This document shows positions 46,093 through 50,027 of a DNA stretch of 50,027 bases, piece after piece. The position numbers were made by a program, and so were the translations under genes. The notes beneath the pieces were generated by a model. The model was given only the letters and a program-made list of their open reading frames with translations. It searched no databases and had not been told where the DNA came from. Within the stretch, counting starts at the first letter, position 1. Every line of letters starts with the position of its first letter. The stretch comes from Porticoccaceae bacterium (GTDB lineage Bacteria; Pseudomonadota; Gammaproteobacteria; Pseudomonadales; Porticoccaceae): the NCBI GenBank assembly GCA_029248755.1, contig JAQWIR010000017.1, positions 1 to 50,027 on the forward strand. Reading direction: 5' to 3'.

Positions 46093-46242
46093 ATGAATAT
46101 TGAACACGATTTTTCTGAAAAAGAAACCAATCAGCAAGTTAACCTTAACGTTGTCCCTGAAAAAATGACGGATATGTCTTGGTTGTTAAAATTAACCTCA
46201 GAAAGTATTTGGGCAAAGGATAAAAAAAAAGGTTTGATGTAA
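46093..46242 (+). CDS. N-terminal frame of a frameshifted hotdog-methyltransferase gene
   Basis: This 49-codon frame starts at ATG 46093 with AAGGAAA 5 nt upstream, the best translation start in the area. It ends at TAA 46240-46242 just after a run of nine A. The following gene is open only from the A run onward in the -1 frame and has no good start of its own. Joined by a -1 step, the two give a continuous protein of about 496 residues. It is therefore most likely the true N terminus of the downstream protein. Confidence 0.7.
   Translation: MNIEHDFSEKETNQQVNLNVVPEKMTDMSWLLKLTSESIWAKDKKKGLM
46222..46230 (+). other. A9 run, frame-change point between two coding frames
   Basis: Codons AAA AAA AAA in the upstream frame contain the slippery heptamer A AAA AAA (46224-46230). 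A -1 slip continues as AGG TTT GAT GTA ACC and joins the downstream frame without a stop. The downstream frame has a TAA at 46221-46223, so the frames can only join here. Homopolymer sequencing error, phase variation, transcriptional slippage and ribosomal frameshifting are all possible. Confidence 0.7.
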
Positions 46243-46271
46243 CCAACTTCACCAAATTATTTCATGATTCG

Positions 46272-47582
46272 GTGCCAGTGCTTTCTTTTTTAAAGTGGCG
46301 CATTTCTAAGATAGAAAGGGGCTTTACTCAAACGGTACTACCATTAAATGTGGAGTCTTCGAACCAGTATATTACCCAGCAAGCTGCACTCATGCTTTTG
46401 GCGGCGGATTACACGGGCGGTATTGCGCTGTGTACGCTTTTTAATGAAATACCTGTTATGGGCTTTCATCCTATGCAAAGTGACTTTGGGGCCTATATGT
46501 GGGGCGCTAAGGCTAGTATTAAATGGCATCGCCCTAGCGCAGATGATTTAACCTGTGAGGCAGTCATACCTGAAGAGGAATGGGGCAAGGTTGCAAAACG
46601 TTTTTTTGAGGGGCGAGATGTGATTATTACTATACCCGTCATTATGAGAAACGGTGACGATCTAGTGGCCACTGCGGACTTTACCTATTGGGCAAAAAAT
46701 ACACATGCACTTCGAGAAACTGCGCGCGATGAAGAAAAGACACATATTTTATATACCCATCAAATAAAAACCTCGGCACAGCTTATCGCTGGTCTACGTT
46801 CACTTAATGACAACCATACTGACCCCATTGCACAGGATGTCGCGGGAAAACAGGGTTTAATTTTGGCGAAGAAGTTTTGTTTAACCGCGCCACAACTTCA
46901 ACAAATGGTCGAAGCTAGAACAGAGCATTGTGACCGCTCACTATCACTGTTTGCTAAAAAGCATGCTAGCTTTTCTATTGTCAATATTGGTGTTGGTTTG
47001 GATACGCGATTGTGCCGATTCAAACACCTAAACAATATCAATGCAGTTTATGAATTAGATTTGCCTATTATGCTCTCGTTGAGAAGTGAAAAACTACAGG
47101 GTGCTGATAACACTAAGTTCCCCGTGCATCGTATTGCCATCGATCTTAGAGAAAATGTATTAGAAGAGCGTTTATTAGCTGCGGGACTTGACCCTGAGTG
47201 TCCGACATTTTTTATCTGGGAAGGGGGTTCAATGTATTTTTATAAAGAAGAAACTAATCAAACCTTTTCTGCTGTAAGAAAACTAATGCAAAACTCAGAA
47301 AGTTTGTTGTGGCTGGACTACACTAGTAAGAAAGTAGTAGCTGATGAGACTAATATACCCGAGGTGGAGGATTTTATGGCTAATATGCGACGTATGGGGG
47401 AGCCTTTTATTCAGGGGTATGAAACTATCCTATCACCGGAAAACGCTCGTTTATTTGAAATGAAACACCTAACCTCAAGTGATTATTGTGTTGATGAACC
47501 AGACGCAATTTACGGGCATTACAGTTTCTGTATTCTAGCGCCAGCGGGACAGCCTGAAAATAATGTTGCAGTTGCGGCCTAA
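46272..47582 (+). CDS. Hotdog (DUF4442-like) domain fused to LCMT/PPM-type carboxyl methyltransferase
   Basis: This frame encodes 436 residues from GTG 46272, but the real protein probably begins upstream (ATG 46093) through the A9 frame change. Residues about 5-145 look like a DUF4442 hotdog thioesterase-like domain: AALMLLAADYTGGIALCTLF, YMWGAKASIKWHRPSADDL, GRDVIITIPVIMRNGDDLVATADFTYW. Residues about 160-430 look like the leucine carboxyl/PPM methyltransferase family: the SAM motif NIGVGLDTRLCRF (near 240), YELDLP, and FFIWEGGSMYFYKEE. I infer a SAM-dependent methylation of a carboxylic, perhaps acyl, substrate. It overlaps the sensor kinase gene by 20 nt, so the two are coupled. Both the domain pairing and its product are unknown to me. 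Confidence 0.75.
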   Translation: MPVLSFLKWRISKIERGFTQTVLPLNVESSNQYITQQAALMLLAADYTGGIALCTLFNEIPVMGFHPMQSDFGAYMWGAKASIKWHRPSADDLTCEAVIPEEEWGKVAKRFFEGRDVIITIPVIMRNGDDLVATADFTYWAKNTHALRETARDEEKTHILYTHQIKTSAQLIAGLRSLNDNHTDPIAQDVAGKQGLILAKKFCLTAPQLQQMVEARTEHCDRSLSLFAKKHASFSIVNIGVGLDTRLCRFKHLNNINAVYELDLPIMLSLRSEKLQGADNTKFPVHRIAIDLRENVLEERLLAAGLDPECPTFFIWEGGSMYFYKEETNQTFSAVRKLMQNSESLLWLDYTSKKVVADETNIPEVEDFMANMRRMGEPFIQGYETILSPENARLFEMKHLTSSDYCVDEPDAIYGHYSFCILAPAGQPENNVAVAA

Positions 47583-48795
47583 TATAGCGGGTGAATTAAC
47601 CTATTTTTGGGGTGGGTGGCTTGGTTTAGTTGCTCACCCTATTTATTGGGTTATTTGGACTTATTGGTTTCCCCAACCCTTCGAAAGTGCTTGGTTGCGA
47701 TTTCTCTGTAGTGCGTTGTCTATTCCAATTATTTTTAGGCATCATTGGCCTCAAAAAACCAAGCAATTTTTCTCTTATTACTGGTTTGTTTTTTTAATGT
47801 TCCAATTGCCTATCACCTTTTCTTATTTGACATTTAAAAACGATTTTTCAAGCGTATGGCTGATCTGCGCGACTCTTATGGTTATTGTCTTACCGGTTTT
47901 TTATCCCAAACTACAGGTATTTCTGGCTAATTTACTGATTGGCGTTGGTATTGCCTATGGTCTGTATTTCTTTACTGAAGGCCAGTATCTTGTTTTACAG
48001 CAAGAGCATTTTACCTACTTGATACCGCTGCCCATCGGGGTCATTCTTATCATGGTATTTAGCTATACGATCAAGCAAGAGAAGATAAAACAAGAAGAGA
48101 TCAAACAGAAAACCAAAATTTTTAAATCCCTCGCTGGCACCATCGCCCATGAAATGCGCAACCCGCTATCTCAAATCAATGGCACCTTGCATTTACTTTG
48201 GGGTAAAAAAGCCTCCAATAGTCCGGAAACTGAAACTTATTTGGATGGTTTAAAACAGGTGATTAAAAGTAGTTTTCAATTAATTGATATCACTATGGAT
48301 GCGATTAATGAAAAGCCAGTAAGAAAAGATAATTTCCAGCTTATTTCTGCTTTAGATATCTGCAATGAGGCTGTTTCGGATTATGCTTATAAAGAAGCTA
48401 AGTACAGGGACAAAGTTTCTGTTTCTGGGGCAGATTTTCAAATATTAGCTGATCCTGTGTTGGTTAAATATATTCTCTACAATCTGATCGGTAATGCCCT
48501 TTACTATGTACAACATATTCCCAATGCAGCAATCGAAATTTCAACCCTTGCGGCTACTCGGCAAGTTCAGATTCGTGATACGGGGCCGGGTATTCCCTCT
48601 GAAAATATATCCAAGCTATTTGATAGCTTTTTCACTTCGGGTAAAGAGGGCGGTACCGGCTTGGGCTTGTCTTACTGCAAGCGCACTATGAAGGCTTTGG
48701 ATGGCGATATTTATTGTGAATCTGTGTTGGGCGAATATACTGCGTTTAGGCTGTCATTTCCTGATGTGGCGGTTCAAACTAAAAAGATTGCTTGA
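47563..48795 (+). CDS. CqsS-like membrane sensor histidine kinase without receiver domain
   Basis: A 410-residue kinase. Residues about 10-170 form six hydrophobic helices with WGGWLGLVAHPIYWVIWTYWFPQPFES, which strongly resembles the start of Vibrio CqsS (GWMGMLGFPAYYFIWEYWFPQSYEN, from memory). A short charged linker leads to the H box GTIAHEMRNPLSQING with His196. The N box is YNLIGNALYYV, and the G boxes are RDTGPGIPSENISKLFDSFFTSGKEGGTGLGLSYC. Unlike CqsS it stops after the ATPase domain and has no receiver. The ATG at 47563 lies inside the methyltransferase gene. A quorum-sensing receptor role is inferred from the sensor fold and neighbour. Confidence 0.85.
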   Translation: MLQLRPNIAGELTYFWGGWLGLVAHPIYWVIWTYWFPQPFESAWLRFLCSALSIPIIFRHHWPQKTKQFFSYYWFVFLMFQLPITFSYLTFKNDFSSVWLICATLMVIVLPVFYPKLQVFLANLLIGVGIAYGLYFFTEGQYLVLQQEHFTYLIPLPIGVILIMVFSYTIKQEKIKQEEIKQKTKIFKSLAGTIAHEMRNPLSQINGTLHLLWGKKASNSPETETYLDGLKQVIKSSFQLIDITMDAINEKPVRKDNFQLISALDICNEAVSDYAYKEAKYRDKVSVSGADFQILADPVLVKYILYNLIGNALYYVQHIPNAAIEISTLAATRQVQIRDTGPGIPSENISKLFDSFFTSGKEGGTGLGLSYCKRTMKALDGDIYCESVLGEYTAFRLSFPDVAVQTKKIA

Positions 48796-49199
48796 TTCTA
48801 ATGTGGTTAACCCTGTTTTTTACTTTGCCCTAATTTTATCGCTGTTACTTGAAAACACTGATCTCTTCTTTTTTATCCTCTACGCTATTTTTAAAGGGTT
48901 TTACGCGCCCATTAAACAATATTTTCACTTGTATTAACCCTTTTTAAAAACGCACCAACTCAATGCATTAAATTTTTCTGATGCACAAGTAACGCTCGTT
49001 ATAAAAATTCTCTGTTAATTTTTTCAAATAAAATGAAAATTAAATAAACCGAACAAAATCAATAGGATATATTTTTATTTTGTTGGGTTGTTAATTTTTG
49101 GCACGGTTCTAGCGTTGTATATAGGTAAATGCAGTTTTTCTCTAATACAAGTTTTTGGTATTGAGAATACTACCCACAGCAACTTACCGGAAAAATTTA
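48796..49199. other. Intergenic region with a sigma-54 promoter
   Basis: About 400 bp, AT-rich, no convincing gene. Only the sigma-54-type element near 49099-49113 stands out. No response-regulator gene is found after the kinase. Confidence 0.6.
49099..49114 (+). promoter_or_regulatory. Sigma-54-type promoter upstream of the ABC ATPase
   Basis: TTGGCACG begins at 49098, with GG at 49100-49101, and GC of TAGCG lies at 49112-49113. There are exactly 10 nt between GG and GC, as in -24/-12 promoters. The -24 half is perfect, while the -12 half has TAGC in place of TTGC. It sits about 90 bp before the ATG at 49200 and would make the transporter dependent on RpoN and an activator such as NtrC. Confidence 0.55.
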
Positions 49200-50027
49200 A
49201 TGACAACGCAAGAAAGCAAAATTTTAAGTACCGATGATGGCTCATCTACAGGCCCGAAAAAGTTAAATAGGTCCAAAGTGGAATGCGGTCAAATTACTAT
49301 TGATAACGTTAGCGTGGTCTTTGGTAAAGGCGCTGATGCTGTCACAGCAGTTGATAAAGCTGATTTGAAAATTTCTGCGGGTGATTTTGTTTGCATACTT
49401 GGGCCTTCTGGCTGTGGCAAGTCTACTTTGCTTAACAGTATTGCGGGTTATCTAAATCCTTCATCGGGTTCTATTAGGGTGGATGATTCTGAGGTGTTAT
49501 TACCTGGACCGGATCGCGGCATGGTATTTCAGCAATATTCTCTCCTTCCTTGGAAAACAACATTTGAAAATATCGCTCTTGGACCGCGTTTAGCTGGCGA
49601 TGTTGAAGCCAGTAGTACCGCTGAATATTTTCTTGAGATGGTTGGGCTTTCTAAGTATCGCAACCATTATCCCGCTGAATTATCTGGGGGCATGCAACAG
49701 AGAGTTGGTATCGCTAGAGCTTTAGCAACACAACCTAGTGTGCTTTTGATGGATGAGCCTTTTGGTGCACTTGATGCTCAAACGCGCGTTTTTATGCAGG
49801 AAAGTTTACTTGATGTATGGAGTGAGTTTGGCACTACGGTTGTGTTTGTGACTCATGACGTTGATGAGTCTGTTTTTCTTGCGGATAAAATTGTGGTTAT
49901 GGGTTCAAACCCTGGGCGTATTGTCGCTGAGTTTGAAAATAATTTACCCAGGCCTAGAACTCAAGAATTATCAACCACCCCTGAATTTATGGATCTTAAG
50001 AGACAATGTTTAGAGGTTATTCGCGCT
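49200..50027 (+). CDS. ABC transporter ATP-binding protein, TauB/NrtD/SsuB type, 3' end cut off
   Basis: Open frame from ATG 49200 to the window end, 276 codons without a stop. It has Walker A GPSGCGKST, Q loop MVFQQYSLLPWKT, signature LSGGMQQR, Walker B VLLMDEPFGALD and the H loop VTHDVDE, the pattern of nitrate/sulfonate/taurine importers. An N-terminal extension of about 35 residues (rich in Ser, Thr, Lys) precedes the ATPase core, which is unusual. The sigma-54-type promoter suggests a nitrogen source. The substrate is unknown, and the permease and binding protein are presumably outside the window. Confidence 0.88.
   Translation, partial: MTTQESKILSTDDGSSTGPKKLNRSKVECGQITIDNVSVVFGKGADAVTAVDKADLKISAGDFVCILGPSGCGKSTLLNSIAGYLNPSSGSIRVDDSEVLLPGPDRGMVFQQYSLLPWKTTFENIALGPRLAGDVEASSTAEYFLEMVGLSKYRNHYPAELSGGMQQRVGIARALATQPSVLLMDEPFGALDAQTRVFMQESLLDVWSEFGTTVVFVTHDVDESVFLADKIVVMGSNPGRIVAEFENNLPRPRTQELSTTPEFMDLKRQCLEVIRA

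Follow-up and report, generated by a model that had tools for sequence, protein, structure and literature searches.

Do two overlapping genes near the end of a 50,027-nucleotide stretch of Porticoccaceae bacterium DNA (contig JAQWIR010000017.1; this whole stretch is referred to as the window) make and sense a small-molecule signal? The pair occupies positions 46093-48795 and encodes a fusion of a hotdog domain with an LCM-type methyltransferase, followed by a CqsS/LqsS-type histidine kinase; a sequence-only reading had seen in it a candidate synthase and receptor for a methyl ester. Our results partly confirmed that observation as a whole. We regard it as fairly probable that the fusion and the kinase constitute a cognate synthase–receptor unit with the layout of CqsA/CqsS and a different synthase. 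The receptor appears, judged from its sequence, to be a mosaic whose sensor travelled with the fusion and whose kinase is that of the host genus. The locus comprises the following features.

46093..46242, + strand: upstream frame of 49 codons and a stop, by eye like the N-terminus of the intact fusion at a second locus, L041
46230..46700, + strand: hotdog domain of the DUF4442/PA5026/MadB superfamily (residues 1-157 of the 450-amino-acid reading)
46272..47582, + strand: main open frame of the hotdog–LCM fusion (436 amino acids from the first listed start)
46770..47549, + strand: LCM domain, an S-adenosylmethionine (SAM)-dependent methyltransferase (residues 181-440)
47563..48795, + strand: membrane sensor histidine kinase of CqsS/LqsS type (410 amino acids), from domains and homology
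47605..48078, + strand: sensor domain (residues 15-172), grouping with the L041 sensor and carrying C102 and I158
48040..48111, + strand: interval (residues 160-183) with the ancestry switch between sensor and kinase, from column comparison
48112..48768, + strand: kinase core (residues 184-402), grouping with reductase-paired kinases of the same genus

The main frame of the fusion is open back to 46224, and the start of the gene lies beyond a frame break in a run of nine A (46222-46230), which severs the upstream frame from it. A second ATG, at 46174, is nearer than 46093 to the start of the L041 fusion.

Profile and fold searches upheld both domain calls of the earlier reading. The methyltransferase part has the profile, the fold and the invariant residues of the LCM family (PF04072), keeping R230, G256, D258, D277, G332 and Y336, which do not vary in a 20-row LCM alignment. 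DUF4442 (PF14539) scored below its curated cut-off of 25 bits, at 20.0, 21.4 and 23.1 bits across the window protein, read in two ways, and the L041 fusion. A joint profile of the fusion hotdog and three DUF4442 proteins matched PA5026 at 1.2e-11, and in the fold comparison PA5026 was the nearest solved hotdog fold. Fold and joint profile thus agree on the hotdog assignment despite the sub-cut-off score. The hotdog part came out at low confidence in the full-fusion structure model, so it was modelled alone.

The second product carries HisKA and HATPase domains; a receiver domain was looked for in it and none was found. Its sensor region, of the six-helix CqsS/LqsS type, could be aligned throughout with CqsS-type sensors, which makes it a CqsS homologue, as the sequence-only reading had proposed. 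In tblastn searches of plasmids the kinase was matched over its full length in Paraburkholderia (35%), Vibrio (30-32%) and Cupriavidus (27%), and the Vibrio and Cupriavidus genes adjoin CqsA- and LqsA-like genes; the reference synthases (L035 and L036) exceed the NCBIfam cut-off for alpha-hydroxyketone autoinducer synthase. When the sensor by itself was searched in six frames, matches at E 0.001 or better came from 29 of the 150 genomes in one Burkholderia family group (best 1.6e-31), from 3/56 relatives and from 17/369 genomes of the class, the own genome being counted in both of the latter. As to membership in CqsA/CqsS itself, the sensor kinase is present at the window locus, the adjacent pyridoxal phosphate (PLP) synthase is missing, and Ser107 and Phe162 are replaced.

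A scan of genome contigs with the window and Paraburkholderia kinases yielded 16 loci. At one of them, L041 (gammaproteobacterial metagenome-assembled genome, MAG, nzgw590), a kinase 41% identical to the window kinase lies divergent to a 481-amino-acid fusion, which is 55% identical to the window fusion over its length and is followed by a 390-amino-acid receiver protein, a PhcQ/PhcR-like regulator. The synthase–receptor unit of the earlier reading was therefore found again in a second genome, and the sensor, not the kinase, follows the fusion; the interpretation given in that reading is partly supported, the pairing being right in essence. The pair is rare: the full fusion was absent from 34 same-genus relatives, which rules out a conserved genus trait, and from 21 other relatives of the order, and it was found in no other of 369 class genomes. 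Only two of 390 genomes of the order carry it, the window's own and that of L041 (the assemblies G423 and G667 are apparently one L041 genome, contig number and coordinates being identical). Partial matches in relatives and class genomes were methyltransferases or DUF4442-like proteins alone, and the 12 plasmid records with a match all aligned within the methyltransferase part, in each case over less than 80% of the query.

CqsS-type receptors adjoin at least five kinds of enzyme. Among 63 CqsS-type kinase open reading frames (ORFs), one of them a duplicate (L135 repeats L107), partners within 1500 bases of the kinase were called by a tblastn search of each stretch with the enzymes identified up to then. 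CqsA or LqsA stood beside 30 of the 63, a gene like 3-oxoacyl-acyl carrier protein (ACP) synthase III (KASIII) beside nine, an acyl-ACP-reductase-like gene (a weak call) beside five, a haem-oxygenase-like gene (PF14518) beside two and the hotdog–LCM fusion beside one (L041; the window pair was not counted). No recognised enzyme lay within 1500 bases in the fetched stretch for 16/63 kinases, some of them at contig ends. The closest solved relatives of the KASIII-like partner were 3-oxoacyl-ACP synthase III entries 3row, 3s21 and 3fk5, which we take to be OleA. The reductase-like partner matched TIGR04058 (long-chain acyl-ACP reductase) at 2e-5, far short of the cut-off, and PDB 6jzu at 4.9e-5; a stronger match was 9e4x (4.8e-11), whose description says no more than adenylation domain protein. 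The haem-oxygenase-like reference sequences were taken from the two loci that they label (L176 3747-5777 and L185 2687-5533), where the kinases lie 10 and 19 bases from the PF14518 gene, a candidate further synthase type. A PF02390 methyltransferase beside L177 and a radical-SAM gene beside L180 were housekeeping-like and were excluded as partners. The window's own genome holds a second CqsS-type kinase, L170 (G000:C14, 4483-6821), overlapping a reductase-like gene by 4 bases, and this pair recurs in G005 of the same genus (L171). Two unusual arrangements were also observed: in the Rickettsiaceae MAG locus L045, two CqsS-type kinases flank a KASIII-like gene, a signalling set not expected in this family, and an ORF downstream looks haemagglutinin-like by eye; and the 1.7-Mb assembly of G036, of the same order, contains four matches to the CqsS-type sensor (L172, L173, L174), one kinase adjoining a KASIII-like gene and an LqsR-type regulator. 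Homologues of CqsA/CqsS have been reported in several families, and the accessible part of that source mentions no other synthase (PMC5289986). In the literature covered, mostly titles outside subscription, we found no report of LCM-linked quorum sensing, of CqsS with another synthase, or of CqsS-type pairing with reductase-, KASIII- or haem-oxygenase-like enzymes.

The history of the window receptor was followed in trees. The first comprised 60 rows including the window and a PhcS-like outgroup, without L037, L053, L135, L174 and L187, and the alignment 58 rows including the window, L038 being dropped as well; rows left out were cut-off, duplicate or long-branched sequences. The whole-length test tree (28 rows) and the domain trees (27 rows) covered the CqsS-like clade and some neighbours only, and the domain trees and column statistics did without L045_1162, the more distant of a pair of kinases at one KAS gene. 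Over the whole length, the sister group of the window kinase was the pair of reductase-paired kinases from its genus (100/99) and not the L041 kinase. On the sensor tree (158 columns), window and L041 grouped at 100/99, and a grouping of the window with own-genus kinases was rejected by the approximately unbiased (AU) test (p 7.4e-4). On the kinase tree (243 columns), the window grouped with own-genus kinases at 100/99, and its grouping with L041 was rejected (AU p 2.4e-5). The window sensor is 55.1% identical to that of L041 vs 32.5% and 31.8% to own-genus receptors; its kinase is 33.2% identical to L041 vs 56.6% and 61.6% to own-genus kinases. A single switch at residues 160-183, the sensor–kinase joint, fitted 77 of 85 informative columns, and none of 2000 shuffles did as well. 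An assembly chimera with the genome's own second kinase was ruled out because the kinase halves of the two are only 56.6% identical.

The pattern is not unique to the window: reductase-paired L097 and KAS-paired L034 are 71.0% identical in the kinase and 25.3% in the sensor. Six KAS-paired sensors, from Burkholderiaceae and the Rickettsiaceae MAG, grouped at 100/99 on the sensor tree, with L052 and L173 outside, and the reductase-paired sensors of both lineages formed a group (84/90) that also took in one unlabelled row; in the kinase tree, Burkholderiaceae reductase- and KAS-paired kinases were mixed in one 100/100 group. Enzyme labels changed seven times on the sensor tree and ten times on the kinase tree, the minimum being five (six labels, unlabelled counted as one). 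The six-helix domain of V. harveyi CqsS functioned when joined to a foreign output, adenylate cyclase, according to the accessible part of PMC4821796, and natural splicing is therefore plausible.

That the fusion merely neighbours the kinase by accident, without any link to it, we consider very improbable. The fusion occurs in two genomes only and the gene order differs, overlapping tandem in the window and divergent in L041, as such an accident might leave it; yet adjacency was kept despite the rearrangement, and the sensor half, not the kinase half, follows the fusion.

Residues of the sensor also tracked the enzyme. In V. cholerae CqsS, W104 and S107 read the C3 group of the ligand, F160, F162 and F166 its head group, and C170 sets chain length, as described in the accessible part of PMC3376566. 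The mapping is supported by the Legionella row L050, which has the LqsS residues given in the accessible review text at W104, S107, F160, F162 and 170 and departs from that L. pneumophila LqsS at F166 (V instead of A). W was found at the W104 position in 53/58 rows. The S107 position was S in all 28 CqsA/LqsA-paired rows, T in all five reductase-paired rows, A in six of nine KAS-paired rows (C, G and W in the others), C in both fusion-paired rows, and S and N in the two haem-oxygenase-paired rows. The F162 position was F in 28/28 CqsA/LqsA-paired and 8/8 scored KAS-paired rows, V in 5/5 reductase-paired and I in 2/2 fusion-paired rows; the window residues are C102 and I158, respectively. With mutual information normalised by residue entropy, F162 ranked first and S107 second of 370 columns (45 labelled rows), as they did of 372 columns among 25 representatives; by raw mutual information S107 was first. 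The strongest point in support of ligand tuning is that the window row has the residue state of L041 although its kinase is of the other lineage.

Several findings weigh against the fusion and the kinase being a synthase–receptor unit, or against the evidence for it. The fusion frame is broken in the window's assembly, and the fusion is known in two copies only. The whole-length tree rejected a grouping of the two fusion-paired kinases (AU p 0.036), as though the fusion had been paired with such a kinase twice; we consider this tree misleading because the sensor and kinase trees differ. The domain split was itself tested only after column counts had pointed to it. F162 is only 35th by raw mutual information, the other four of six pre-named positions rank between 94 and 368 of 370, and enzyme class cannot be fully separated from descent, so the residue association supports ligand tuning and does not prove it. 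For the enzyme, NCBIfam TIGR00027 scored 87.3 bits, just short of its cut-off of 93.55, and methyltransferases of that type act on other or unknown substrates. The HAG motif of DUF4442 relatives reads QAA in the window hotdog and the Mad loop is absent from it in the alignment; with its active site so altered, the hotdog domain may only bind. For the output, no LqsR-like match was found in the own genome (G000, assembly 88.7% complete) or in G005, and the L041 regulator had a single match in G000, to the receiver part of an NtrC-like gene (27% identity) located next to genes for a sensor kinase and a protein like glutamine synthetase (named by eye).

What would the pair do? Characterised LCM relatives are carboxyl methyltransferases, which makes a methyl ester the best guess; we infer that the product is probably the methyl ester of an acyl carboxylate. 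The hotdog domain would bind, and perhaps release, an acyl group held as an ACP or coenzyme A thioester, and the LCM domain would methylate the free carboxyl with SAM to give a neutral, membrane-permeable ester. The adjacent six-helix sensor would recognise this ester through a C102 and an I158 adapted to the head group, and the kinase would be switched. A quite improbable variant has the LCM domain methylating a malonyl- or other dicarboxyl-thioester, as BioC does in biotin synthesis, while a Mad-like hotdog faces ACP; the signal would then be the half-ester of a dicarboxylic acid or a product of its elongation. The malonyl-ACP decarboxylase MadB is indeed among the nearest solved folds after PA5026 (TM score 0.81 by target length), but LCM and BioC are different methyltransferase families, and the Mad catalytic Asn45/Asn43 loop does not appear in the alignment. 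The catalytic loop of Mad decarboxylases contains Asn43, Asn45 and Phe51 (PMC8666670), where the fusion has E42, S44 and Q51 in a profile alignment to 1t82 that is weak in the loop. Malonyl-ACP decarboxylase activity of the hotdog was kept as a rival only.

Unlikely, if less so, is that the fusion alters or degrades a signal from another source, or modifies a lipid to some other end, the kinase reporting the level of that lipid and not cell density. Nothing indicates secretion or density dependence, Mad relatives in the hotdog superfamily act in fatty acid synthesis, and an enoyl-ACP reductase-like gene adjoins the L041 kinase. Against such a role, CqsA/LqsA-type synthases hold the equivalent place beside CqsS-type receptors, and the window sensor follows the enzyme on the sensor tree. 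A synthase paired with its receptor is the reading we retain.

Inspection of the neighbours by eye, with searches of the Dus and ABC genes, revealed no regulator gene next to the window pair. A nitrate/taurine-type ATP-binding cassette (ABC) transporter ATPase (49155-50027) runs off the window and has no visible link to the pair. Given that the two receptors of the genome have the same type of kinase half, and that none of the genes next to the window pair was identified as a regulator, the host-type half probably shares one unlinked regulator with the reductase-paired receptor of the same genome. Several receptors converge on one relay in Vibrio, according to the accessible part of PMC13220807.

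A broader proposal, which we put slightly below an even chance, is a plug-in platform in which an acyl-consuming synthase and its six-helix sensor form a cassette that passes from genome to genome and is spliced onto the host kinase at the joint, the hotdog–LCM fusion being a new synthase class whose methyl ester is unrelated by descent to the PhcB esters. A species could then change its chemical language without rewiring its output. As far as sequences can tell, the new elements are this enzyme architecture beside a CqsS-type receptor and the apparent joint transfer of sensor and enzyme, the host keeping its own kinase. To our knowledge, the ligands of most membrane histidine kinases are unknown; if sensors are inherited with synthases, the neighbouring enzyme would predict the ligand class, with the CqsS S107 and F162 positions as testable markers. 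CqsS-type signalling would extend beyond alpha-hydroxyketones to several acyl-derived signals, one of them a methyl ester whose synthesis has no kinship with the PhcB route, and the locus would show how a bacterium swaps its signal while retaining the output kinase.

Of the known systems, PhcB/PhcS/PhcR/PhcQ of Ralstonia and Cupriavidus resembles the window in that a SAM methyltransferase adjoins a sensor kinase (operon and methyltransferase in the accessible part of PMC6989110). Homology with this system was not borne out, no kinship of synthase or sensor being detected, and domains, profile comparison and a kinase-only alignment rule out membership. Gene order and domains, rather than gene names, served to identify the phc genes, and NCBIfam gave no match for the PhcB-like protein. 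All three PhcB-like proteins searched (L135, L136, L138) contain Methyltransf_25 and neither LCM nor DUF4442, hhalign of the fusion against four PhcB-like proteins gave a probability of 2%, and BLAST aligned a PhcS-like kinase to the window kinase over about 240 kinase residues only, the sensors not being alignable, which still allows a remote sensor kinship. The L041 regulator is like the paired regulators of phcBSRQ-like operons, its best matches being two tandem regulators of such operons in four of six other genomes searched. PhcB/PhcS, whose signal is a 3-hydroxy fatty acid methyl ester, is thus at most a functional or chemical parallel. The L041 genome has, in addition, a seven-transmembrane histidine kinase (L141, 3646-7605), its kinase core 37% identical to that of L041, between a weakly PhcB-like gene (25% similarity, cut by the contig end, without a Pfam match) and an L041-type response regulator, possibly a second ester system.

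LCMT1, PPM1, TYW4 and ML2640 of the LCM family share fold and sequence with the fusion, which differs from them by its attached hotdog domain and linked receptor. MadB, PA5026 and DUF4442 proteins are like its hotdog in fold and joint profile, whereas its loop and HAG motif are altered. CqsS-type kinases beside reductase-, KASIII- or haem-oxygenase-like genes have a receptor of the same family and one adjacent enzyme, of other types. In CqsA/CqsS (Vibrio) and LqsA/LqsS (Legionella, Cupriavidus), the receptor is homologous over window residues 18-400, sensor and kinase included, and the enzyme gene adjoins the receptor gene as it does here; at the window locus, the hotdog–LCM fusion stands in place of the PLP enzyme, and the sensor has C and I where CqsS has S and F.

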